Positions 784-37,057 of a stretch of DNA of 40,365 nucleotides are shown in pieces. Position 1 is the stretch's first letter; each line of letters begins with the position of its first letter. Below the pieces are notes generated by a model. That model saw nothing but the letters and a program-made list of their open reading frames with translations. It did no database searches and had not been told where the DNA came from. Source of the DNA: a virus. Both the position numbers and the translations under genes were made by a program. The DNA lies in the IMG/VR virus record IMGVR_UViG_3300037193_002910, positions 1 to 40,365 of that record. One strand, 5' to 3'.

Positions 784-2293
784 CCCAGTCGCCGTCGTCG
801 AAATCGACGAAACCGAAGTCACCGTTACGGTCTTCGACGGCGTCGGGGTCGCTGTCGAGGGGGTCGGCGCTGTCGGCCCGCCGGGATCCATTGGCGCGAC
901 CGGCCCGACCGGTCCCGTAGGCGCAACTGGCCCGACAGGACCGGCCGGCGCCACCGGACCGACCGGACCCACCGGGCCGACGGGAGCGGCCTCCACCGTC
1001 GCCGGCCCGACCGGCGTGACAGGTGCGACAGGTCCCGCGGGGTCGGCTGGTCCCCAAGGCGCGACCGGGGTAACAGGCCCAACGGGACCCGCTGGCCCCA
1101 CCGGTGTAACCGGCCCGGCCGGTGTCGGCGCAACCGGCGCCACGGGCCCACTTGGCGCGACCGGGCCTACAGGTCCCGTCGGTGCGACAGGCCCCACGGG
1201 CGTGACAGGTCCCGCCGGGCCTGCCGGCCTTGAGTGGCGTGGCGCCTGGAACGCGGAGACCGCCTATGTCGAAGATGATGCCGTCGGGTTCGATGGTGCG
1301 TCATGGTTCGCCATCGCTCCGTCGACCGGCGACCAGCCGGACATCTCTCCGGTGTCGTGGGCGCTGCTCGCCGCCGAAGGCGCCGTCGGTGCTACCGGAC
1401 CGGTCGGCGCGACAGGCCCCGCCGGAGCGGTCGGAGCTACCGGACCCACCGGTCCTGCCGGCGCCACCGGACCGACCGGGCCGGCCGGGGCCGATTCGAC
1501 TGTCGCAGGCCCCGTGGGGCCTACCGGTCCGGCAGGTCCCACGGGTCCAACCGGGGCAACGGGTCCGACTGGTCCAGCTGACTGGACCGTCGTTGACGCC
1601 AAAGGCGACCTCATCGTCGCCACGGCCGCGGACACGGTCGGAAGGCTGGCGGTCGGTACCAACGGCCAGCTCTTAACAGCCGATTCGGCACAAGCCGCCG
1701 GGATCAAGTGGGCGGACGCTCCTGCCTCCGGTATCCAGGCGACGTTGTTCGACGCCAAAGGCGACCTGATTGTGGCGAGCGCGGCCGACACCGCAGCCCG
1801 CCTCGCTGTCGGCACTAACGGCCACGTTCTCACGGCCGATTCGGCCGAGACCGGCGGGGTGAAGTGGGCCGCACCTTCAGGCACTCCTGTATGGGCCCCC
1901 TATACCCCGGCGCTGACCGCAGCGACGACCAACCCGACGCTCGGTACCGGCTCGACGGCGACCGGCCGTTACTGCCAGTCCGGCAAGCTCGTCACCGTCC
2001 AGGTACATATCAAGTTCGGCACGTCGGGCACCAACGCCGGATCAGGCGCCTACAGGATCAGCCTGCCCGTCACGTCCATATCCCCTTTGCGCTTAGCGTT
2101 TCCGCTCGGCGTCGGCTGGATTCTCGACGCCAGCACCGGGGGCAACCCGTCTCACGTCGTGCCAGAGCACGACGCCACGACCTACGTCACGTTGCGGGCC
2201 ATTAGCGGCGGTGGCACCGTCACTCACAGCGGACCGTTCGCCTGGGCAGCCAACGATGAGATCACGCTCTCGTTTACCTACGAGGCCGCGTAA
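776..2293 (+). CDS. Collagen-like tail fibre with CBM5/12-like module
   Basis: The 505-residue fibre protein has a short N-terminal head. A first collagen segment of Gly-X-Y triplets (about residues 33-151) follows, with Thr very frequent at position Y ([12 protein letters not shown]). Residues about 152-205 form an aromatic-rich module (WRGAW..ETAY...V.FDGASWFA...W) like CBM5/12 carbohydrate-binding modules. A second collagen segment (about 205-268), two 40-residue repeats and a globular C-terminal domain (about 371-505) complete it. Trimeric collagen-like fibres in phages usually contact the host surface. The GTG start overlaps the upstream stop by 8 bases. Because a block of sugar-transfer genes starts 46 bases downstream, the Thr side chains are inferred O-glycosylation sites. 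Confidence 0.85.
1595..1714 (+). repeat. Tandem fibre repeat, copy 1 (120 bp, 40 residues)
   Basis: This unit encodes [14 protein letters not shown]... ending in IKWA. A second unit of exactly the same length lies at 1751-1870, offset 156 bases. The DNA copies have diverged at synonymous and some replacement sites while the protein repeat is kept, so selection acts on the protein. This AKGDLI...GTNGQ.L.AD repeat is widespread in phage tail fibres. Confidence 0.85.
1751..1870 (+). repeat. Tandem fibre repeat, copy 2 (120 bp, 40 residues)
   Basis: This is the second copy of the 40-residue fibre repeat ([14 protein letters not shown]... VKWA) and aligns with 1595-1714 without gaps. It leads into the globular C-terminal domain of the collagen-like fibre. 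Confidence 0.85.
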
Positions 2294-2339
2294 TGACCCC
2301 GCACACATCGCCTGCCCTGTTGCCGATACGGAGCGGCCG

Positions 2340-3383
2340 GTGAGGGTCCACATCCCCGGCCTGGTCCACCGGGACGCCAACTCGCAATGGGAACCCGACG
2401 CCTACGTCGGGAAGATCTGGCGGCTCTGCCGGATGCTCACCGAGCAGGGACATGAGGTGTTCCACTACGCCGGCCAAGCGGCCGACACCGCCGTCACCGA
2501 CGTCGAGGTGATCAACAACGACGACCGCCGCAGCTGGTTCGGTGGCGAGACATGGGCATCAACGGTGTTCAACGAGTTCGACCCGGCCCACCCGTCGTGG
2601 ACGACCATGAACACCCGCGCCGTCGAAGCCATCGGTGAGCGGCTCGAACCCGGCGACATCATCGGCCTCACCATGGGATCGGCCCAACACACCATCGCCG
2701 AAGCCTTCCCCGGCCATGTCGTCGCCGAGATGGGCGTCGGCTACGAGGGCGTGCTCCCTCGCACGCACCGCTGCTACGAATCCGAAGCGTGGCGCCACTG
2801 GCTCTGGGGAAAGCACGGCGTCACCGATGGCCGCTGGTTCGACACGGTCATCCCCAACGCCTTCGATCCGGCCGACTACACCGTCAACGCCGACAAGGAC
2901 GACTACCTGCTGTTCATGGGGCGCCTCACGGCCCGCAAAGGCCTCGAGGTCGTCGCCGAGCTGGCCAAACACCATCGGGTGTTGACCGCCGGGCAGGGTG
3001 AACCGGTCGCCGGCGCCGAACACCTCGGTGTCGTCAGGGGCGCGGCAAAAGCCGACCTGCTGGCCGGTGCCCGCGCCGTGCTTGTCCCGACGTTCTACAT
3101 CGAACCGTTCGGTGGTGTGGCGGTCGAGGCGATGCTGAGCGGCACGCCGGTCCTCACCTCACCGTTCGGGGCGTTCTCCGAGACGGTGGCCGACGGTATT
3201 TCCGGGTTCCGCTGTTCGACGCTCGGAGAGTTCCTCGAGGCGGCCGAACGGGTCGACGAGCTCGACCCGAAGTCGATCCGCCGGTGGGCCGAGGACCGTT
3301 ACACCCTCGCCGTCGCCGGGCCGCAGTACGGCCGGTGGCTCGAACGGCTCAGCAGCCTCTACGCCCGAGGTTGGTACCAGTGA
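2340..3383 (+). CDS. GT4-family glycosyltransferase
   Basis: The 347-residue GT-B fold transferase would move a sugar from a nucleotide-sugar donor to an acceptor in the cytoplasm. The C-terminal half has the GT4 donor-site pattern: YLLFMGRLTARKGLEVV (about residues 180-200), a VVRGAAKADLLAGARAVLVPT stretch, and the E-x7-E motif in EPFGGVAVEAMLSG. The GTG start at 2340 is chosen because a GGAG sits about 8 bases upstream; the open frame extends further but without a better start. It is the first of seven glycan genes, and its stop overlaps the next start (GTGA). The acceptor is unknown; the adjacent collagen-like fibre is the best guess from position. Confidence 0.85.
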   Translation: MRVHIPGLVHRDANSQWEPDAYVGKIWRLCRMLTEQGHEVFHYAGQAADTAVTDVEVINNDDRRSWFGGETWASTVFNEFDPAHPSWTTMNTRAVEAIGERLEPGDIIGLTMGSAQHTIAEAFPGHVVAEMGVGYEGVLPRTHRCYESEAWRHWLWGKHGVTDGRWFDTVIPNAFDPADYTVNADKDDYLLFMGRLTARKGLEVVAELAKHHRVLTAGQGEPVAGAEHLGVVRGAAKADLLAGARAVLVPTFYIEPFGGVAVEAMLSGTPVLTSPFGAFSETVADGISGFRCSTLGEFLEAAERVDELDPKSIRRWAEDRYTLAVAGPQYGRWLERLSSLYARGWYQ

Positions 3384-5574: not shown

Positions 5575-6187
5575 CGTCGTGGCCGAATTCTCCCGGGCGT
5601 ACTACAGCTCCCGGGCCTACTCGAAGATCACCTGGCGTGGCGTGCAGCTACTCAAGTACCCGACCGACCTGTGGGTCTACGGCGAGCTGCTGTGGCGGAT
5701 CCGGCCCGAGATCGTCGTCGAGACCGGCACCTACGTCGGTGGCGCCGCCCTCTTCTTCGCCGACATGCTCGACCACGTCGGCGACGGAACGGTGATCTCC
5801 ATCGACGTCAACGACTGGGCCGGCACCGACGGGCCCCCCGCCCATCCCCGCATCACCTACCTCTCGGGGAGTTCCGTCGACCCTCAGATCGTCGGGCTGG
5901 TCGCCGACATCGTCGCCGGCCGGACCTGTTTCGTGATCCTCGACTCCGACCACGCCGCCGACCACGTGACCGGCGAACTCGACGCGTACGGCCCGTTCGT
6001 CTCCCTCGGTTCCTACCTGATCGTCGAAGACACCAACGTCCACGAGGTACGGGCCGACTATCCACCCGGCCCCGACGACGCCGTCGCCAAGTGGCTCCCG
6101 CACCATCCCGAATTCGTCGTCGACCGGGACTGCGAACGGCTACTGCTCAGCGCCGCGCCGGGCGGCTACCTGCGGAGAATCCGGTGA
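5558..6187 (+). CDS. CmcI/rhamnosyl O-methyltransferase-like protein
   Basis: The 209-residue SAM-dependent methyltransferase resembles the CmcI (so-called cephalosporin hydroxylase) and mycobacterial rhamnosyl O-methyltransferase family. Motifs include ITWRG near residue 25, the SAM loop VVETGTYVGGAALFFADML (about 52-70), VISIDVN, FVILDSDHAADHV (about 126-138) and YLIVEDTNVH. Relatives O-methylate sugar hydroxyls and need a divalent metal held by the acidic and His residues around D-S-D-H. The ATG lies 17 bases inside the previous gene; an in-frame GTG at 5579 would avoid the overlap, so the exact start is uncertain. It probably methylates the same glycan as the neighbouring enzymes. Confidence 0.75.
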   Translation: MRCRRDVVAEFSRAYYSSRAYSKITWRGVQLLKYPTDLWVYGELLWRIRPEIVVETGTYVGGAALFFADMLDHVGDGTVISIDVNDWAGTDGPPAHPRITYLSGSSVDPQIVGLVADIVAGRTCFVILDSDHAADHVTGELDAYGPFVSLGSYLIVEDTNVHEVRADYPPGPDDAVAKWLPHHPEFVVDRDCERLLLSAAPGGYLRRIR

Positions 6188-6900
6188 GGACACTGCTCGT
6201 CGTGCCGGTCATCGACCCGGAACTGTCGACGCCGTGCCTCGATTCGATCCACCCCGACCTCGATCTGTACGTCGTCGACAACTGTCTCCTGCCGTTGCGA
6301 TGGTCGAGGCTCGGCGCCGACGTGGTCCGCCCGACCCGCAACCTGGGGGTTGCCCGGTCCTGGAACATGGGCGTCGCCCACGCCATCACATTCGGGTTCG
6401 ACGCCGTGGCACTCATCTCGGCCGCGGTCCGGTTCGGGGTCGACGGCGGCCGAGACCTCGCCGCCGTCGACCCCGGCAAGTGGGGATGCACCCCGCCGCC
6501 CGCCGGGTGGCATACCGCCATCCTCACCACCGGATTCTTCGATCGCGTCGGTGTGTTCGATGAGAACTTCTTTCCCGCCTACTACGAGGACATCGACATG
6601 ATCCGCCGCGCCGCGCTGGCCGGGATCCACCTCGGCGGCGGCGACAGGACGATGGATCTGACCACGACGGGACCCGGCCACGGCGTCGACGCTCTCCGCC
6701 ATCAGCATCCCGGGCTGGCCACGATCAACTACGACGCGCTGGCCGACTACTGGGAAGCCAAATGGGGAGTGCCCGTCGCCGCCGCCACCGACACCGCCCG
6801 GGGGCACATCACCCCGTTCGGCCGTGACGTCGCCCTGTCCTGGTGGGAACCGGCCACCATCGACGAGCTCCTCGCCCGCTATCGGATCGTGGGTCGATGA
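6184..6900 (+). CDS. GT2-like glycosyltransferase
   Basis: The 238-residue single-domain GT-A type protein starts with the typical GT2 strand VRTLLVVPV. It carries the RNLGVARSWNMGVA segment that matches the N-x-G-x-x-x-x-x-N nucleotide-sugar pocket motif, and has FFDRVGVFDENFFPAYYEDIDMIRRA, the usual GT2 acceptor-side ED-x-D region. A clean DXD motif is replaced by a weaker segment near LISAA, so activity should not be taken for granted. The GTG start overlaps the upstream stop (GTGA). It is the fifth gene of the glycan cassette. Confidence 0.75.
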   Translation: MRTLLVVPVIDPELSTPCLDSIHPDLDLYVVDNCLLPLRWSRLGADVVRPTRNLGVARSWNMGVAHAITFGFDAVALISAAVRFGVDGGRDLAAVDPGKWGCTPPPAGWHTAILTTGFFDRVGVFDENFFPAYYEDIDMIRRAALAGIHLGGGDRTMDLTTTGPGHGVDALRHQHPGLATINYDALADYWEAKWGVPVAAATDTARGHITPFGRDVALSWWEPATIDELLARYRIVGR

Positions 6901-20881: not shown

Positions 20882-21724
20882 GTGACCTCCGGTGACATTT
20901 CACCCCGGGGGGAAACAACGGTGGGGGATCCCGATACCACGGCCGACTGGCCGGACGAAGACCCGATTGACTGGGTCCGGCTCTTCATGCTGTCGCCGGC
21001 GACCTGGTTCGCTCTGCTGGAAGAGCTCAGCCGGCGCCAGGAACCGGCTGCTGTCGCCTGGTTCCACGACGCCTGCGAGGAAGCCCTCCGCCGGCTCACC
21101 GACGTCCACCACCAGCTGCCCGTCCTCGGGCTGACCGTCAGCGGCCTGGCCGCTATCTACGAGAAGGCCTGGGCGGCGCAGAACGAGGCCGTCGAACACG
21201 ACGACCGGCCTCTCGGCGAGACCGAGACCAGCCGGGAACGGAACAGCAGCCGCCGCACCGGCTGGCGCGACGATCTCGACGCGGTGCTGGCCCCGGCCAT
21301 GGCCGACGCCGTGATCAACCTCCACCTCCGGGGAGCGACGGACAGCCACATCTCGACGATCCTTCTCATCCCCGCCGACTGGCCGGCCAAGATCGTCGGG
21401 GCCGCCCGGCTCAGCCCCAAAGCCCGGGCCGTCGTCCGGGCCCACCTCGAGGGCGCCTCCCTCGCCGGCATCGCCAAAGCGACCGGAGTACCGGCCACGT
21501 CCGCCCTGCGCATCCTGCGCCAGGTCGGCGAGGTTCCCCACGGCGCCAGGGAACGGGTCGACGCCGCCGCCCGCGCCCGGGCGATCGTCCGGCTCCGGGA
21601 GCGCGAAGGGATGACCTACAAGGAGATCGCCGAGCGTCTCGGCTGCTCCATGGACACGGTCAAGAACGTGCTGCGCCGGAAACGCCGGTCCCGCTACGGC
21701 AAAGGGAAAGGACCGGCGGCATGA
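20882..21724 (+). CDS. HTH DNA-binding protein, first early gene
   Basis: The 280-residue protein has an acidic N-terminal third (IDWVRLFMLSPATWFALLEELSRR) and a long helical middle. Two helix-turn-helix units are visible: GASLAGIAKATGVPATSALRIL (about residues 180-200), and GMTYKEIAERLGCSMDTVKNVL (about 242-263), the latter like sigma region 4 or LuxR-type helices, followed by a basic tail RRKRRSRYGKGKG. It probably regulates the early operon or assists replication initiation. GTG 20882 has AAGGA 12 bases upstream; GTG 20921 with GGGGGGA is an equally good start. Confidence 0.7.
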   Translation: MTSGDISPRGETTVGDPDTTADWPDEDPIDWVRLFMLSPATWFALLEELSRRQEPAAVAWFHDACEEALRRLTDVHHQLPVLGLTVSGLAAIYEKAWAAQNEAVEHDDRPLGETETSRERNSSRRTGWRDDLDAVLAPAMADAVINLHLRGATDSHISTILLIPADWPAKIVGAARLSPKARAVVRAHLEGASLAGIAKATGVPATSALRILRQVGEVPHGARERVDAAARARAIVRLREREGMTYKEIAERLGCSMDTVKNVLRRKRRSRYGKGKGPAA

Positions 21725-23497: not shown

Positions 23498-23773
23498 ATG
23501 CCCGACACGCCGCTGCAGTACTTCTCGACATGGCTCGCCCAGCACCGCCGCGGTGAACTCGACGCCGAGATCGCCGCCGCTCTGGCCGACGTTGCCGGCG
23601 CCGCTCAACAGACCGGTAAGAGCGGCTCCGTCACGATCGTGCTCAGTCTCAAGCCGAATCCGAACTCTGACAGGCCCGACCTTGTCGAGAGAGCAGTGTT
23701 CGACGAGGTCGTCGACGAAGTCGCCGCCGGCGCGAACCCGCCGGCGATCCTCCGCGGACCGGCACCGTCATGA
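23498..23773 (+). CDS. Small protein upstream of recT-like gene
   Basis: The 91-residue protein has a ribosome site GGAAGGGAC before ATG 23498. The N-terminal helix (YFSTWLAQHRRGELDAEIAAALADVAGAAQQTGKSG) leads into a strand SVTIVLSLKPN. This layout is common in small proteins beside phage recombination genes, but their role is not established. It overlaps the RecT-like start by 4 bases. Confidence 0.6.
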   Translation: MPDTPLQYFSTWLAQHRRGELDAEIAAALADVAGAAQQTGKSGSVTIVLSLKPNPNSDRPDLVERAVFDEVVDEVAAGANPPAILRGPAPS

Positions 23774-24906
23774 GCGGCCAGACCTCGCTCGTGCGGGCCT
23801 CCGCCGCGGCTCCGACCCTCTCGGAAAAAGCGTTCGAGACGATGAAGCGCCAGGCCGTCGTCCTCTCCAAGACCGAGCTCGTCCCCAAAGCTCTTCAAGG
23901 GAAACCCGAAGCAATCATGCTCGTCGGGATCTGGGGCGCCGAACACGGCATCCCACTCGCGACCGCCGTCCAGGAAGTCCACATCATCGAGAACCGTCCG
24001 TCGCCTTCGGCGCAGCTCCGCCTCGCCCTGATCCGCCGCTACGGCCACGAGATACGCTTCATCGACACCGATACCACCAAGGCTGTCCTGCGGGCCCGGC
24101 GCCGTGAGAACCACGACGACCCCGACGCCTGGGTCACCGTCACCTACAGCCTCGACGACGCTCGCAAAGCCGAACTCCTCGACGAGTGGGTCGAGCGGTG
24201 GCAGAAGGCCCCCGGCGCCAAATACGACAAGAAGTTCACCTACAAGATCGGCGACGACCGCGGCCGCGTCGACCTCACCGACGCCCCCGACTGGGTCCAC
24301 GAAGAGATCCAGGCCGGGCGCGTCCACTCCAAGGACAACTGGCGGAAGTACCCGAGCGACATGCTCAGGGCCCGCGCCGCCGGCGTCATGTCCCGCATGG
24401 AGTTCTCCGACGTCATGCTCGCCCTCGGAATCGACCTCTATACCCCCGAGGAGCTTGGTATCGACGTCGGCCAGGACCTCGACGAGCCCGCCGCCAGCGA
24501 GGGCGGGCCCGCCGACGAACACGACGACGGGGGAGGGGAGGTGATCGACGAAGCCGTCGTCGTCGAAGACCTCGCCCCGGAGCCGGAGGAGACACCACCC
24601 AGCCCGCCTCCGGCTCCGGGCGAGACCCCGCCGACCAGCTCCGCCGAACCCCAGCCTGCCGGGCCGCCCCAGGAACATCCCGTGCCCCGCCCCGGCCCAG
24701 GGGAACGCCAGGACCAGGCCGACCTCCGCTACCGGCTCTGGGCCCACGTCCCGAACGAGGACAAGGCCGACGTGCGGGCCTGGCTCGAACGGTGCGGCCT
24801 CGACCCCGACGACAACAACATCTCCGAAGGCAAGGTCGCCGCCGTCAACGCCGAGCTCGACCGGCGCGGCTACCCCACGATCGACCGTCCCACCGGCTCG
24901 GCCTGA
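23770..24906 (+). CDS. recT: RecT-family single-strand annealing protein
   Basis: The 378-residue protein has a RecT-like domain over about residues 15-230. Typical parts are LPKALQGKPEAIMLVGIWGAEHGIP...QEVHIIENRPSPSAQLRLALIRRYGHEIRF, then WVTVTYSLDDARKAELLDEW and a late KDNWRKYPSDMLRARAAGVMSRMEFSDVMLALG signature. Such proteins anneal single strands during recombination-dependent replication. The C-terminal third is an acidic and proline-rich linker (about 240-310) followed by a small helical domain, longer than in minimal RecT proteins. No partner exonuclease gene is recognised next to it. Confidence 0.75.
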   Translation: MSGQTSLVRASAAAPTLSEKAFETMKRQAVVLSKTELVPKALQGKPEAIMLVGIWGAEHGIPLATAVQEVHIIENRPSPSAQLRLALIRRYGHEIRFIDTDTTKAVLRARRRENHDDPDAWVTVTYSLDDARKAELLDEWVERWQKAPGAKYDKKFTYKIGDDRGRVDLTDAPDWVHEEIQAGRVHSKDNWRKYPSDMLRARAAGVMSRMEFSDVMLALGIDLYTPEELGIDVGQDLDEPAASEGGPADEHDDGGGEVIDEAVVVEDLAPEPEETPPSPPPAPGETPPTSSAEPQPAGPPQEHPVPRPGPGERQDQADLRYRLWAHVPNEDKADVRAWLERCGLDPDDNNISEGKVAAVNAELDRRGYPTIDRPTGSA

Positions 24907-24918
24907 CCAACGGAACGG

Positions 24919-26400
24919 ATGACCCGCCAACGATCACCCAACCCGGCCCCGCACGACAAGGACGACGAAGCCGCCCTCCTCGGAGCGGCGCTCCTCACCC
25001 GCGAAGCCGCCCAACTCGTCGCCGAGCGCACCACCGAAGCCGACTTCTACGTCCCGTTCCACAAACGGATCCGGGCCGCCATCGCCGACCTCGTCGCCGG
25101 CGGCCAGGCCGTCGACATCGCCACCGTCGGCTCTGACCTGTCCCGCCGCAACGGCGTCGCCTCGGTCGACGAGGCAAAGCAGGCGCTTCTCCGCCTCCAG
25201 GCGGCCTGCCCGGCGTCGTCGAATGCCCCCGCCTACCTCCGCAACGTGCGTAGCTGGACACGGCGCCGCCGGGCCATCGGCCTCGCCGACCAGCTCCGCC
25301 AGCAGGCCGTCCGCGACCAGCCCATCGAAGGGGTCATCGCCCAGATCGAAGGGCTCGTCGCCGAAGAGAAGATCGACACCACCAGCTGGCACGAACTGCC
25401 GCTCCTCGGTGTCCTCGAAGGCGAACCGGAAGACGACCAGCCAACCATGCTCGTCCGAGACGACGGCGCCTGCCTCATCTACCCCGGCCGGGTCCACGTC
25501 TTCGCCGGCGAACCCGAATCCGGCAAGACGTGGCTCGCCCTCCACGTGTGCGACGAGCAGATGGGCTGCGGCCGCCACGTTGTCTACATCGACTTCGAAG
25601 ACACCCTCGCCGGGGTGGTCGCCCGGCTCCTCGCCCTCGAGGTCGACGCCCAGACGGTCCTCTCCCGGTTCCACTACATCCGGCCCGCCGACCCGTTCAG
25701 CCCCGAGGGCCGCCACGCCCTCGTCGAGCTCCTCACCCGCACCCAGCCGGCCGTCGTCGTCATCGACGGCCTCACCGAGGCCTTGACACTGCACGGCCTG
25801 GCCCTCGAATCGAACCGGGACGTCGCCCAGTTCCTCGAGCTCGTCCCCCGCTTCATCGCCCGCCAGGGCCCGGCGGTCGTGATCATCGACCACGTCGAGA
25901 AGGACAAGGAACGGCGGGGCCGGTGGGCCATCGGAGCGCAGCACAAGCTGGCCGGCGTCGACGGCGTCTCCTACGGCCTCGAGGTCGTCAAACCGGTCGT
26001 CCGCGACGGCGACGGCCTGGTCCGCCTCGTCGTGGCCAAGGACCGGCCCGGCCATGTCCGCCGCGTGGCATTTGAACGCAAGACCGCCGCCGAGGTCGCC
26101 ACCACCTCCGAGAAGGACGTCCTCACCGTCACCTTGACCACTCCCGGTGGCAAATTGAGAGGGGCGGAATGGCGGCCGACAGGGCTCATGGAACGCCTCT
26201 CGATGTGGCTGGAACGCAACCCGGGGGCCAACACCAGGCTCATCCGGGCGTCCGTCACGGGGAAGGGACCGTCGATCGACGAGGCCCTCAAGTATCTCGT
26301 CGCCGACGGTCACGCCGTCATCGAAATCGGCCCCCGAGGAGCTCACCTCTACCGGATCAAGACCGCCTATCGGGAACACCCCGAGGACGACTCCGAATGA
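24919..26400 (+). CDS. DnaB-N / RepA-like replicative helicase
   Basis: The 493-residue protein has a DnaB N-terminal domain (about residues 10-110; EAALLGAALLTREAAQLVAERTTEADFY...HKRIRAAI). A RecA-type ATPase core of the RepA/AAA_25 kind follows, with Walker A GEPESGKT (about 197-204) and Walker B AVVVIDGL (about 278-285). The C-terminal region looks like a winged-helix unit (MERLSMWLERNPGANTRLIRASVTGKGPSIDEALKYL). It should unwind DNA at the phage origin. The iteron-like array begins right after its stop. The start has GGAACGG upstream. Confidence 0.8.
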   Translation: MTRQRSPNPAPHDKDDEAALLGAALLTREAAQLVAERTTEADFYVPFHKRIRAAIADLVAGGQAVDIATVGSDLSRRNGVASVDEAKQALLRLQAACPASSNAPAYLRNVRSWTRRRRAIGLADQLRQQAVRDQPIEGVIAQIEGLVAEEKIDTTSWHELPLLGVLEGEPEDDQPTMLVRDDGACLIYPGRVHVFAGEPESGKTWLALHVCDEQMGCGRHVVYIDFEDTLAGVVARLLALEVDAQTVLSRFHYIRPADPFSPEGRHALVELLTRTQPAVVVIDGLTEALTLHGLALESNRDVAQFLELVPRFIARQGPAVVIIDHVEKDKERRGRWAIGAQHKLAGVDGVSYGLEVVKPVVRDGDGLVRLVVAKDRPGHVRRVAFERKTAAEVATTSEKDVLTVTLTTPGGKLRGAEWRPTGLMERLSMWLERNPGANTRLIRASVTGKGPSIDEALKYLVADGHAVIEIGPRGAHLYRIKTAYREHPEDDSE

Positions 26401-26554
26401 CCGTGTCCCACCGTGTCCCCACCGTGTCCCGGCTCCGGGGGACACGCTCTGACCCACTGTGTCCCCGTGTCCCCCCCCCGAAGGGGACACGGTGGTCAGG
26501 CAGTCCCGAAGACACCCACCTCGGAAACGACCGTGTCCCGACAGAAAGGGACAC
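26401..26554. repeat. GTGTCCC iteron/hairpin array, putative origin
   Basis: The heptamer GTGTCCC occurs six times forward (26403, 26413, 26424, 26459, 26467, 26533) and three times inverted (26439, 26484, 26548) in about 150 bases. Several copies are extended to CCGTGTCCC. The inverted copies create hairpins; the best has a perfect 10-base stem CCGTGTCCCC/GGGGACACGG at about 26465-26492. A 60-codon frame crosses the array (26397-26579) but its residues only mirror the repeats. The place next to the helicase suggests a replication origin or initiator-binding region. Confidence 0.65.
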
Positions 26555-26578
26555 AGTCAAAACCCGCGGGGCGACCTG

Positions 26579-27319
26579 ATGAGCACCATCGAACAGCTCA
26601 CCACCACCAGGCCCGCGACGTTCTGGGCCGAAGGGAACTGCCGCGACCTCCCCGCCGACTGGTTCCACCCCGACCGGGGCGAATCGACAGGCGAGGCACG
26701 GGCGGTCTGCGCCGCCTGCCCCGTCCGGCCCGACTGCCTCCAGTGGGCCATCACCAACGGCGAGCGTTTCGGAGTCTGGGGCGGAACCTCGGAGCGTGAA
26801 CGCCGGCGGATCCGACGGCGTCTCGCCGCCGGAGATCCCGTGCCCGAACTCGAGCCCGACTGGACACCCACCGACAGCCGAGGCCGACCACCCCTGCTCG
26901 TCCTGCCGCCGACCCCGGAGGAACCCGAAGTGGATCTCGCCACTGCCACCCCGGAGCCCACCACCAACAACGGGACGGGCCCGCCGCTCGACCCGGCCAC
27001 CGGCCGGCCCACCGACGTCTGCGTCAACTGCGGGAAGCGCTACACCCCGAAGCGCCGCGACCAGCGGTTCCACACCAAGGAATGCGCACGAGCCTGGTAC
27101 GCCACCCACCCCAGAGGCGAAAACGGCAAGCGCACCCCTCGGATCCGCAAACCTCGCCGCGCCGCCGAAGCGCCCGTGCCGGTCACCACGACCGCTACCG
27201 CCGGGCCCGGCGTCGACGTCCAGGCCCTCCTCGGCCAGCTCCTCACCGCCTGTGACCGGTGGGCAATCGAAGCCGACCTCGGCGACATCCGCGTCTCGGT
27301 CACCCGAGGCTGCCGCTGA
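26579..27319 (+). CDS. WhiB-like regulator with second zinc site
   Basis: The 246-residue protein has an N-terminal WhiB domain (about residues 12-80) with Cys21, Cys44, Cys47 and Cys53 in the C-x(n)-C-x2-C-x5-C order for a 4Fe-4S cluster. GVWGG is at 65-69, followed by a basic segment ERERRRIRRR for DNA contact. A Pro-rich linker leads to a second metal site CVNCGKRYTPKRRDQRFHTKEC (about 147-168), and a basic and helical C-terminus. WhiB-like proteins bind sigma-factor region 4 and are confined to actinobacteria and their phages. Usual length is about 80-130 residues, so this is an extended form. It may redirect host or phage transcription. Confidence 0.85.
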   Translation: MSTIEQLTTTRPATFWAEGNCRDLPADWFHPDRGESTGEARAVCAACPVRPDCLQWAITNGERFGVWGGTSERERRRIRRRLAAGDPVPELEPDWTPTDSRGRPPLLVLPPTPEEPEVDLATATPEPTTNNGTGPPLDPATGRPTDVCVNCGKRYTPKRRDQRFHTKECARAWYATHPRGENGKRTPRIRKPRRAAEAPVPVTTTATAGPGVDVQALLGQLLTACDRWAIEADLGDIRVSVTRGCR

Positions 27320-33505: not shown

Positions 33506-34033
33506 ATGCCTCGTGGCCCGCTTCCCGATCCGAAACACCACCGGCGCAATGCTCCGACGATCCCGACGACGAATCTCCCGGCCGGTGGCCGTCAGGGTCC
33601 TGCGCCTCGGATCCCGAAGGGCTCGGTGGAGCTCGGGGCGGCCGGCCGGGCGTGGTGGCGGTGGGCGTGGTCGACACCTCAGGCGGCGGCATGGGATGCC
33701 GGGTCGTTCCAGGTCGTGCTGCGCCGGGCCCGCCTCGAGGACGCGGTCGCCCTGTTGGAGGAATTCGATCTGGGCGAGCCGCCGTCCGATCCAGCCGAGG
33801 TGCCTGAGTATCTCGAGACGCTCAAGTGGGTCATCCAGGTATTGAAGGGCGCGGCGACCGGGGTGCTCGGGGTGATGCGGGAGATGCGGGAGCTCGATGA
33901 TCGGCTCGGTCTGACACCGAAAGCGATGGCGCAGCTTCGCTGGTCGATCGTTGCTGAAGAGGAGCCGGAGCGGGTGGCGGTCGAGGTGGTGGACCGGTTG
34001 GCTGAGCGGCGCCGGCGGTTGGCCAGTGCGTGA
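33506..34033 (+). CDS. terS: Terminase small subunit
   Basis: The 175-residue protein begins MPRGPLPDPKHHRRNAPTIPTTNLPAGG, the typical opening of actinophage small terminases. A segment GAAGRAWWRWAWSTPQAAAWD follows, then helical parts (RARLEDAVALLEEFDLG...YLETLKWVIQVLKGAATGVLGVMREMRELDDRLGLTPKAMAQLRW). It binds the packaging site and regulates the large subunit. ATG 33506 is chosen from the conserved MPRGPL opening; the frame extends upstream. It overlaps terL by 8 bases. Confidence 0.8.
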   Translation: MPRGPLPDPKHHRRNAPTIPTTNLPAGGRQGPAPRIPKGSVELGAAGRAWWRWAWSTPQAAAWDAGSFQVVLRRARLEDAVALLEEFDLGEPPSDPAEVPEYLETLKWVIQVLKGAATGVLGVMREMRELDDRLGLTPKAMAQLRWSIVAEEEPERVAVEVVDRLAERRRRLASA

Positions 34034-35708
34034 GCGGATCGTCGCCCCGGCACATGACCGGGACCGATCGCTCGGCTGGCTGGCCCTCGAGTGGATGGAG
34101 CACTTCTGTGTGCACGGCCCGGGTGACGTCGAGGGCCGCCCGCTGCTCCGCGACGCCTCGGATGGTCTTCCCCTGGACGACGAGTTCGCCGTGTTCGTGG
34201 TCGACGCCTATGCGCTTAACGAGCGGGGCCGGCGCCTGTACGACTCGGTGTTCTTGTCGCGGGCGAAGGGACGGGCGAAGTCGGAGCTGGCCGGGCTGCT
34301 GGCGTTGTGGGAGGGGATGGGGCCGTGCCGGTTCGCCGGGTGGGCGGAAGGCGGCGAGGTGTTGAAGTGGCGGGATTTCCGCTACGTGTACGTGGCCGGG
34401 GAGCCGATGGGTCGCCCGGTGACCTACCCGTTTGTGCGCTGCCTGGCTACCGAGGAGACCCAGGCCGGGAACACGTACGACAACGTGTACTTCAACCTGA
34501 CCGAGGGGCCGCTGGCCGAAGGGTTGGCGAAGAACGCGGCGGGGCTGACCCGGATCTTCCTCCCGAACGGCGGGGAGATCGTCCCGTCGACCGCGTCCTC
34601 GTCGGCGAAGGATGGCGGGAAGGAGACGTTCACCGTCTTCGACGAGACGCACCTGTACCACTCGCCGGAGCTGCGCCGGATGTACGTGACGGTGGACCGG
34701 AACTGCCGGAAGCGGCGCGAGTCGACTCCGTGGGCGTTGCAGACGTCGACGATGTACCAGCCAGGGGAGGACTCGATCGCGGAGCGGACCCACGCCCGGG
34801 CGCGGGCGATCCTCGACGGGCGGGTCCGGGAGTCGCGCCTCCTGTTCGATCATCGGGAGGCGCCGGCCGATGTCGACCTGACCGATAAGGCCGCCGTCGT
34901 CGAGGCGCTGGGGGAAGTGTATGGCCCGTTCGCCGCGCAGATGGATCTCGACGGGATCGTCGAGAACGAGTTCTGGAACGTCGAAAAGGACGTGGAGGAC
35001 TCTCGGCGCTACTTCTTCAACCAGCCGACCGCTGCCCGTGACGCCTGGATGACCCATCCTGACTGGGCGGCGTGCGCCGACCCGGAGCGGGTGGTCGCCG
35101 ACGGGGACACGATCGTGATGTTCTTCGACGGGTCGAAGAACGACGACGCCACCGGCCTGGTGGGCTGTCGGGTCGACGACGGCCACGTGTTCGTCCTCGG
35201 CTGCTGGGAGAAACCGGAGCAGGCCGACGGGTGGGAGGTGCCGAGGGCTGAGGTCGACGTGGCGGTCCGGCAGGCATTCGACCGGTTCGATGTCGTCGCC
35301 TTCTACGCGGACGTCCGCGAGTTCGAGCAGTACGTCGACGATTGGGGGGCGGCGTTCCGCGACCTGCTTCTGGTCGACGCCACCCGGGGTGCCCATCCGC
35401 ACCCGGTGGCATGGGACATGCGGGCGAAGACAGCTGACTTCACAGCGGCGTGCGCCCGTTTCCTCGTCGATGTCGACGATCGGGCCGTCTCGCACGACGG
35501 TGACAGCCGTCTCCGCCGCCACATCCTCAATGCTCGCCGGGCACCGAACAAGTGGGGCGTGTCGATCTCGAAATCGGGGAGGGAATCGCCGGACAAGATC
35601 GACCTGGCTGTATGTGCTGTCGGAGCTCGTCAGGCCCGCCGCGACGTCATCGACTCCGGGAAACTCGCCAAGCGGCGGGTCCGTACGGGGAAGGCGTCGT
35701 TCCTGTGA
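34026..35708 (+). CDS. terL: Terminase large subunit
   Basis: The 560-residue packaging ATPase/nuclease carries a Walker A-like segment SRAKGRAKSE (about 78-87), a common deviant form in actinophage terminases. Walker B TVFDETHLY lies near 200-208. The nuclease domain has MFFDGSKNDD (about 362-371) and a late acidic DKIDLAVCAVGA (about 522). It drives DNA into the prohead and cuts it. GTG 34026 starts 8 bases inside terS. The stop overlaps the portal GTG. Confidence 0.9.
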   Translation: MRERIVAPAHDRDRSLGWLALEWMEHFCVHGPGDVEGRPLLRDASDGLPLDDEFAVFVVDAYALNERGRRLYDSVFLSRAKGRAKSELAGLLALWEGMGPCRFAGWAEGGEVLKWRDFRYVYVAGEPMGRPVTYPFVRCLATEETQAGNTYDNVYFNLTEGPLAEGLAKNAAGLTRIFLPNGGEIVPSTASSSAKDGGKETFTVFDETHLYHSPELRRMYVTVDRNCRKRRESTPWALQTSTMYQPGEDSIAERTHARARAILDGRVRESRLLFDHREAPADVDLTDKAAVVEALGEVYGPFAAQMDLDGIVENEFWNVEKDVEDSRRYFFNQPTAARDAWMTHPDWAACADPERVVADGDTIVMFFDGSKNDDATGLVGCRVDDGHVFVLGCWEKPEQADGWEVPRAEVDVAVRQAFDRFDVVAFYADVREFEQYVDDWGAAFRDLLLVDATRGAHPHPVAWDMRAKTADFTAACARFLVDVDDRAVSHDGDSRLRRHILNARRAPNKWGVSISKSGRESPDKIDLAVCAVGARQARRDVIDSGKLAKRRVRTGKASFL

Positions 35709-37057
35709 TCCCTGAATCGGAAGTGGTCGACTGGACCCGCCGCCTCCTCAAGATCCGCAAGGCGGAATGCGATCAGCTGGACCGGATCCACATGTACTGG
35801 CGGGGTGAGCAGCCGCTGCCGGTCGTGCCGCGGGGTACACCGACCGAGGTTCGCCGCATGGCCGAGATGTCCCGCGTGAACGTGTTGCCATTGGTGGTCG
35901 ATGTGCCGGCCCAGTCGCTCTATGTCGTCGGGTACCGCCAGGAAGGCGAGGGGAACGACGACCCGGCGTGGGAGATCTGGCAGGCCAACAAGCTTGACGC
36001 CCACCAGACCGGCGTGCACCGGGCCGCGCTCGGCTACGGAACGAGCTACACGGTGGTCGTCCCCGGTGATCCCCATTCGGTGATCCGGGGCGTGTCACCC
36101 CGGCGGATGACGACCCTGTACGGCGACGATCCGGAGTGGCCGGAGGCAGCGCTCGAGGTGCGCCGCACCGAAACGGGCGGCACGACCTATCGCCTCTACG
36201 ACGACGCGCATGTTTGGTTCCTGGATGAGGACACGGCGAACATGCCGGCGGGGGAGAAGAACAACCCGGTGCTGGCCGGACCGCCGAGCGTGCACGGCGC
36301 GGGGGTGTGCCCGGTGGTCCGGTTCCGTAACCTCGACGACCTCGAGGACGAGGTGAACGGGGAGATCGCCCCGCTCATCCCGCTCCAGGACCAGATCGAC
36401 TTCACCACGTTCGATCTGATGGTGGCGCAGCACTTCACGGCGTTCCGGCAGCGGTACATCATGGGCTGGTTGGCGCCGACGGAGAACGAGAAGGTCAAAG
36501 CGTCGGCGTCGCGGCTTCTCACCTTCGAGGACCCGGATGTGAAGGTGGGGGAGTTCGGTCAGACCGACCTGTCCGGCTATCTGGAGTCCCGTGAATCGAC
36601 TCTGCAGCACCTGGCCACCATCTCGCAGACCCCGCCGCACTACCTGCTTGGGAAGCTGGTGAACCTGAGCGCGGAGGCGTTAGCGGCCGCGGAAGCGGGG
36701 CAGCGCCGCAAGATCGCCGAACGGGAGGTCCTCTTCGGTGAGGCGTGGGAACAGACCATCGCTCTCGCCGCCGGCCTCGAAGGGCTCGAGGTGTCGGACA
36801 GCGCACAGGTGCGGTGGCGCGACACCGAAGCCCGGGCCCTGGCCTCGACCGTCGACGCGCTGGGGAAGATGGCGCAGATGCTCAACGTCCCGCCTCAGGT
36901 CCTGTGGGAGAAAATCCCCGGCTGGACCCAGCAGGACGTGGAACGGGCCAAGGCGGTGGCGGCGTCGACCGATTCGATCGGGAGCCTGACCGCTCTCCTC
37001 GACCGGCAGATGGGTGCCATCCCGGCAGCGCCGGCGCAGAACGGGGCGGGTGGCTGA
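35705..37057 (+). CDS. Portal protein (SPP1 gp6-like)
   Basis: The 450-residue protein has the usual length and motifs of the SPP1 gp6-like portal family. It opens YWRGEQPLPVVPRGTPTEVR...MSRVNVLPLVVDVPAQSLYVVGY, then shows GYGTSYTVV, IPLQDQIDFTTFDLMVAQHFTAFRQRYIMGW, and the conserved ISQTPPHYLLGKLVNLSAEALAAAEAG...KIAERE segment. It forms the dodecameric ring for DNA entry. GTGA overlap at the start and TGATG at the end. Confidence 0.9.
   Translation: MIPESEVVDWTRRLLKIRKAECDQLDRIHMYWRGEQPLPVVPRGTPTEVRRMAEMSRVNVLPLVVDVPAQSLYVVGYRQEGEGNDDPAWEIWQANKLDAHQTGVHRAALGYGTSYTVVVPGDPHSVIRGVSPRRMTTLYGDDPEWPEAALEVRRTETGGTTYRLYDDAHVWFLDEDTANMPAGEKNNPVLAGPPSVHGAGVCPVVRFRNLDDLEDEVNGEIAPLIPLQDQIDFTTFDLMVAQHFTAFRQRYIMGWLAPTENEKVKASASRLLTFEDPDVKVGEFGQTDLSGYLESRESTLQHLATISQTPPHYLLGKLVNLSAEALAAAEAGQRRKIAEREVLFGEAWEQTIALAAGLEGLEVSDSAQVRWRDTEARALASTVDALGKMAQMLNVPPQVLWEKIPGWTQQDVERAKAVAASTDSIGSLTALLDRQMGAIPAAPAQNGAGG

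Follow-up and report, generated by a model that had tools for sequence, protein, structure and literature searches.

A repeat array directly behind a phage DnaB-like helicase gene is a probable replication origin whose spelling changes with the helicase's own winged helix

DnaB-type helicases are normally brought to the replication origin by other proteins, namely separate initiators and loaders. In the stretch of DNA considered here (a phage record from IMG/VR, 40,365 bp long, hereafter the window), the gene for a DnaB-like helicase is followed at once by a dense array of short repeats, which raises the question of what the array does and which protein reads it. We computed the array, its fixed place in relatives, its changing word, the predicted winged helix of the helicase, and the covariation of word and winged helix, and regard it as highly probable that the array is the phage replication origin and that the DnaB-type helicase encoded upstream is its initiator.

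A reading made earlier from the sequence alone (the sequence-only reading) had described nine GTGTCCC copies, six forward and three inverted, in about 150 bases between the helicase and a WhiB-like gene, and both the copies and their place were recovered. The heptamer starts at 26403, 26413, 26424, 26459, 26467, and 26533 on the + strand and at 26439, 26484, and 26548 on the − strand, spanning 152 bp (26403-26554). The true repeat unit is the 10-mer ACYGTGTCCC: all seven of its copies in the window belong to the array, which also contains two looser ones. The resulting array of nine 10-bp sites (26400-26557, no strand assigned) consists of site 1 (ACCGTGTCCC, 26400-26409, +), which starts at the last base of the helicase stop codon, site 2 (ACCGTGTCCC, 26410-26419, +), site 3 (ACCGTGTCCC, 26421-26430, +), site 4 (AGCGTGTCCC, 26439-26448, −), site 5 (ACTGTGTCCC, 26456-26465, +), site 6 (CCCGTGTCCC, 26464-26473, +), site 7 (ACCGTGTCCC, 26484-26493, −), site 8 (ACCGTGTCCC, 26530-26539, +), and site 9 (ACTGTGTCCC, 26548-26557, −).

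Counted over the window, GTGTCCC occurs 13 times (about 12 copies are expected from shuffles), and 9 of the 13 fall within the 0.4% of the sequence taken up by the array; the heptamer is thus not equally common elsewhere and is, if anything, scarce rather than common outside the array. It is the top clustered 7-mer of the 40 kb, with 9 copies in 160 bp against a maximum of 5 for non-array words, and in dinucleotide shuffles of the downstream segment no 7-mer exceeded 4 copies, which upholds the earlier claim of a density above chance. No AT-rich unwinding region lies beside the repeats, the GC content of array and gene being equal (68.5% in the window; mean difference of array minus gene, -0.2 points over 97 arrays), and GC skew makes no clear turn at the array.

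The helicase gene (24919-26400, +) encodes 493 aa with a DnaB N-terminal domain, an AAA_25 RecA-fold motor, and a C-terminal winged helix, and its product is the proposed initiator. Pfam matches (PF00772, E=1.4e-16; PF13481, E=1.6e-15) and the PHROG assignment (DnaB-like helicase, phrog_19) agree, and the Foldseek matches listed for the AlphaFold2 model, built from a 34-sequence alignment, are DnaB-type helicases over the whole chain. The protein therefore has the DnaB N-terminal domain and RecA-fold motor by which a DnaB-like replicative helicase is recognised, and an SF3/D5-type motor was not found in it either by Pfam, which returned AAA_25 and DnaB_N, or by Foldseek. The predicted winged-helix DNA-binding domain covers residues 421-480 (26179-26358, +; pLDDT about 95), with modelled helices at 421-433, 439-445 (helix 2), and 450-462 (the recognition helix), and wing strands at 466-470 and 476-480; remodelled alone, it gave weak matches to winged helices.

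Beyond the array, the WhiB-like gene (Pfam PF02467 on ORF 26459-27319) most likely begins at ATG 26579, a start read from the sequence, and ends at 27319 (+). A RecT-like gene lies at 23770-24906, and the window further encodes tail, endolysin, terminase (33951-35708), portal (35552-37057), and head genes, with glycosyltransferase-like genes near the tail genes (2211-3383 and 5671-6900). ARAGORN also calls a probably spurious tRNA-Ala at 25145-25243 (−), within the helicase gene.

Relatives of the helicase carry arrays in the same place with different spellings. In L004, whose helicase is 64% identical, and in L005 and L006, the array stands directly 3' of the stop codon and is spelled GTGCGTCCC, GCGTCCC, and GCGCCCC, while Microcystis phage MinS1 (helicase 40% identical) carries TCGTCCC ten times. 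This led us to collect 142 loci, drawn both from virus contigs and from bacterial genomes (145 scored, 129 distinct), and to call an array where one 7-mer occurred at least five times within 350 bp after the helicase stop. A downstream array was present in 83 of the 129 distinct relatives vs 31 of 2090 control windows taken from elsewhere in these loci, and in 57 of 72 further new distinct relatives. Among the 145 scored loci (duplicates included), 48 had no downstream array, and 24 of these have an array overlapping the gene's 3' end, a count taken from sliding windows in which a few may be due to chance; about one sixth of relatives are without an array by these criteria. In L455 (pKRAD02, 1784-2100) and L456 (phage Dagobah, about 3000-3260), the C-terminal tail of the helicase is itself repetitive (GNH...VVPG and EPVGEPV, respectively), apparently as a result of the array extending through the coding region. 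Most relatives' words share the frame ACY-NNNY-CCC with a variable centre, which is GTGT in the window and TCGT, TCGC, GCGT, GCGC, CTTT, AGTT, GGTT, or GTGC elsewhere.

GTGTCCC arrays are also found away from this helicase family, directly after VapE/D5-type helicase genes (L009, L012, L048, L055, L125) in phages with other replication genes. The common word was considered as a sign of one reader and this was rejected; since the C-terminal sequences differ by eye and the word itself had served to find the loci, we treat these arrays as convergence plus search bias. A reversed control pattern matched 43 contigs vs more than 119 for the actual pattern, so that single pattern hits alone count for little. 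L039 (2439-2540) and many similar contigs hold a 102-bp array of six GTGTCCC copies (+++++-) beside short unknown genes, with no helicase recognised nearby, and L016 (5438-5552), L017 (1619-1844), and L085 (790-1088) hold dense TGTCCCG repeats in both orientations, where no helicase relative was found.

The changing word offers a means of identifying its reader. A mutual-information scan of 339 helicase columns against 10 word positions (58 sequences, effective number 28), which treats all columns alike and was run on data in which the top-ranking sites had earlier been noticed by eye, gave as its top pairs word position 7 with residue 450, position 5 with residues 443 and 454, and position 4 with residue 440, all of them in the winged helix; residue 451 also ranks high. 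In the window, the codons of these specificity residues (R440, R443, G450, P451, and D454) lie at 26236-26280 (+). Winged-helix and word distances remain correlated when core distance is controlled for (partial Mantel, r=0.18, p=0.0025), whereas core and word distances do not when the winged helix is controlled for (r=-0.07, p=0.89), and on the core tree word position 7 changed at least 12 times and the 450/451 class at least 13 times. Some natural pairs of relatives have different arrays although their helicase cores are 99% identical, and the helicases diverge mainly in the winged helix: L239 (ACCAGTTCCC, centre AGTT) and L394 (ACCTCGTCCC, centre TCGT) share 214 of 215 core residues and 20 of 27 residues in helices 2-3. 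Similar near-isogenic swaps involve L217, L218, L215, and L005/L006, and same-word pairs show the reverse.

Three rules were fixed before the new relatives were fetched: (i) R at 440 goes with G at word position 4, (ii) E443 plus R454 goes with CG at positions 5-6, and (iii) where position 6 is G, a small residue 450 goes with T at position 7, and R/N then E/D with C. They held in 37/40, 39/40, and 34/34 cases, respectively (40 usable of the 57 new relatives with arrays), in a sample that shares ancestry with the training set, belongs in large part to one TCGT clade, and contained no case for the C branch of rule (iii). The window itself obeys, R440 accompanying G, R443/D454 accompanying TG, and G450 accompanying T. 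Exceptions are L004, L108, L182, L190, L226, L250, L263, L355, and L416/L423/L425; the words of the last three (ACCGATCCGC/ACCGTTCCGC) violate rule (i) and maybe represent a different reading frame of the site. To judge from these comparisons, the winged helix of the helicase very probably reads the array, and nothing in the analysis points to the HTH protein encoded at 20882-21724 as its binder.

An initiator-binding origin, the first of the functions offered by the sequence-only reading, is accordingly the best supported option, given the same place of arrays in most relatives, the covariation of the winged helix, the pairing of helicase and array on a small plasmid, and the layout of the Sfi21 origin, although the plasmid, Sfi21, and published origins are other replicons and bear on the window array only indirectly. 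The 7,863-bp Streptomyces plasmid p-XQ-29-C has no evident replication gene other than a helicase of this type; ACCTGCCC repeats and a pyrimidine-rich hairpin come after this gene, and nowhere else does the plasmid have such a segment. In Streptococcus phage Sfi21, the annotated origin ('phage inhibitory sequence', NC_000872) lies directly after a D5-type helicase gene and contains AGTAAC nine times in both orientations. It resembles the window in having noncoding one-word repeats of both orientations directly 3' of a helicase/primase gene, and differs in the word itself, in its AT-rich centre, and in its D5-type helicase (DUF5906 + Pox_D5).

Regulators often contain winged helices and the array occupies a junction between genes, so the helicase might instead bind it as a transcriptional regulator, acting on its own operon or on the WhiB gene. 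We consider this improbable, as the array stands after the helicase gene and not before it, arrays can sit inside the 3' end of the gene, and helicase plus array constitute the evident replicon of the small plasmid.

The array also folds, and the perfect 10-base stem announced by the sequence-only reading is present (CCGTGTCCCC, 26465-26474; GGGGACACGG, 26483-26492; loop 8). This central hairpin (26465-26492, no strand assigned) has a pyrimidine-rich 5' arm. The single-stranded fold of the array beats 200/200 shuffles (z=-3.8), the best stem measures 9.5 bp in relatives' arrays vs 5.9 in controls, and 56/83 arrays vs 188/2039 control windows contain a hairpin core that is rich in pyrimidines and frequently has a TA step at its tip. 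A terminator, already discounted in the earlier reading, is rejected here as well, no T-run following the hairpins 3'. The same figures would suit hairpins that act in single-stranded DNA as a primase-loading structure or single-strand origin, with the repeats serving as stems only. So would pRN1, in which the gene for a replication protein ending in a winged helix is followed directly by an essential stem-loop whose integrity matters, a layout similar to that of the window; pRN1 differs in its SF3 helicase plus prim-pol and its lack of iterons, and specific binding could not be shown in it (PMC4234260). Such a role is nevertheless quite unlikely to be the main one: several copies lie outside the hairpin as direct repeats, stem counts rise with inverted words alone, and the word-helicase code implies that each copy is read in a sequence-specific manner. 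What stands of the earlier single-strand proposal is that the hairpins are real, that their core recurs, and that a secondary role is possible, while an initiator-binding origin is better supported. Because there is no AT-rich region, the hairpin may be the place of strand opening.

Other phage or host proteins are most unlikely readers; the window does encode further DNA-binding proteins (the WhiB-like and 20882-21724 HTH proteins), but word and helicase winged helix change together even where cores are 99% identical, and the array keeps its place behind the helicase gene across many distantly related genomes. A partition, packaging, or recombination site is hardly credible either. Such sites are also built of repeats, and centromere-binding proteins are among the weak structural matches of the winged helix; yet the genes adjoining the array include no recognised partition, terminase, or integrase gene, and its fixed neighbour is a replicative helicase.

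The reading of the array as an origin recognised by its helicase has precedents. In SaPI and SCCmec elements the initiator-helicase gene has the origin immediately behind it, and as in the window short repeats directly follow the SaPI Rep or Cch2 gene; the C-terminal domain of these proteins binds the repeats, as shown for Cch2, and self-loading is thought to occur (PMC7581432), both of which we propose for the window. Rep and Cch2 belong to other helicase families, Cch2 and SaPI5 Rep carrying D5-type domains, whereas the window helicase has a DnaB/RepA-like RecA-fold motor and a DnaB N-terminal domain, and the Cch2 origin has three iterons against nine sites here. In P4 alpha, a winged helix binds origin repeats and the same protein unwinds (PMC4234260). 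P4 alpha has a fused primase, whereas none was seen in the window helicase; L005 has a Toprim domain. P4 alpha is an SF3-type helicase, in contrast to the RecA fold of the window protein. Repeats directly downstream of the helicase gene, a feature of SaPI Rep, Cch2, and P4 alpha, are found in the window and its relatives; as its motor is not of SF3/D5 type, the window helicase appears to work like this class without being a member of it. With bacterial DnaB it shares the N-terminal domain and motor fold, and it differs in its C-terminal winged helix, the proposed reader of origin words; bacterial DnaB, unlike the proposed system, relies on separate initiators and loaders. Iteron plasmid-type theta origins likewise contain multiple copies of one word, predicted here to bind the initiator, but have an AT-rich unwinding region beside the iterons, which the window array lacks.

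From the foregoing we infer physical binding, melting, self-loading, and origin activity. The C-terminal winged helix would bind each 10-bp ACYGTGTCCC site in double-stranded DNA, its variable centre being read by helix 2 together with the beginning of the recognition helix. Subunits bound in both orientations would gather helicase rings around the central hairpin, where the duplex would open, and the same protein would then drive the fork. The window helicase would thereby load itself, against the DnaB norm of a separate loader, and its predicted extra winged helix with a word code would argue against a DnaB-like lack of intrinsic origin recognition.

Our best reading is that the logic is known from SaPI Rep, Cch2, and P4 alpha, that the DnaB-type helicase class is new to it, and that the word code renders the claim testable; no earlier description of the origins of this DnaB-like helicase family was found in the open-access literature. 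More generally, we lean towards the view that phages, prophages, and at least one plasmid possess a large family of DnaB-type (RecA-fold) helicases with an origin-reading domain of their own. Within this domain, a handful of winged-helix residues would act as an evolvable lock, changes in which accompany respelled words in the adjacent origin. If so, replicons would switch origin specificity with the motor unchanged, perhaps escaping competing replicons or origin decoys. A helicase family with an added winged helix that recognises its own origin would provide one-protein, DnaB-type replication starters, and the covariation would amount to a protein-DNA code that can be read, with near-isogenic swap pairs occurring in nature that make origin specificity testable. 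Origins would then be predictable from sequence alone in many uncultured phages and prophages.
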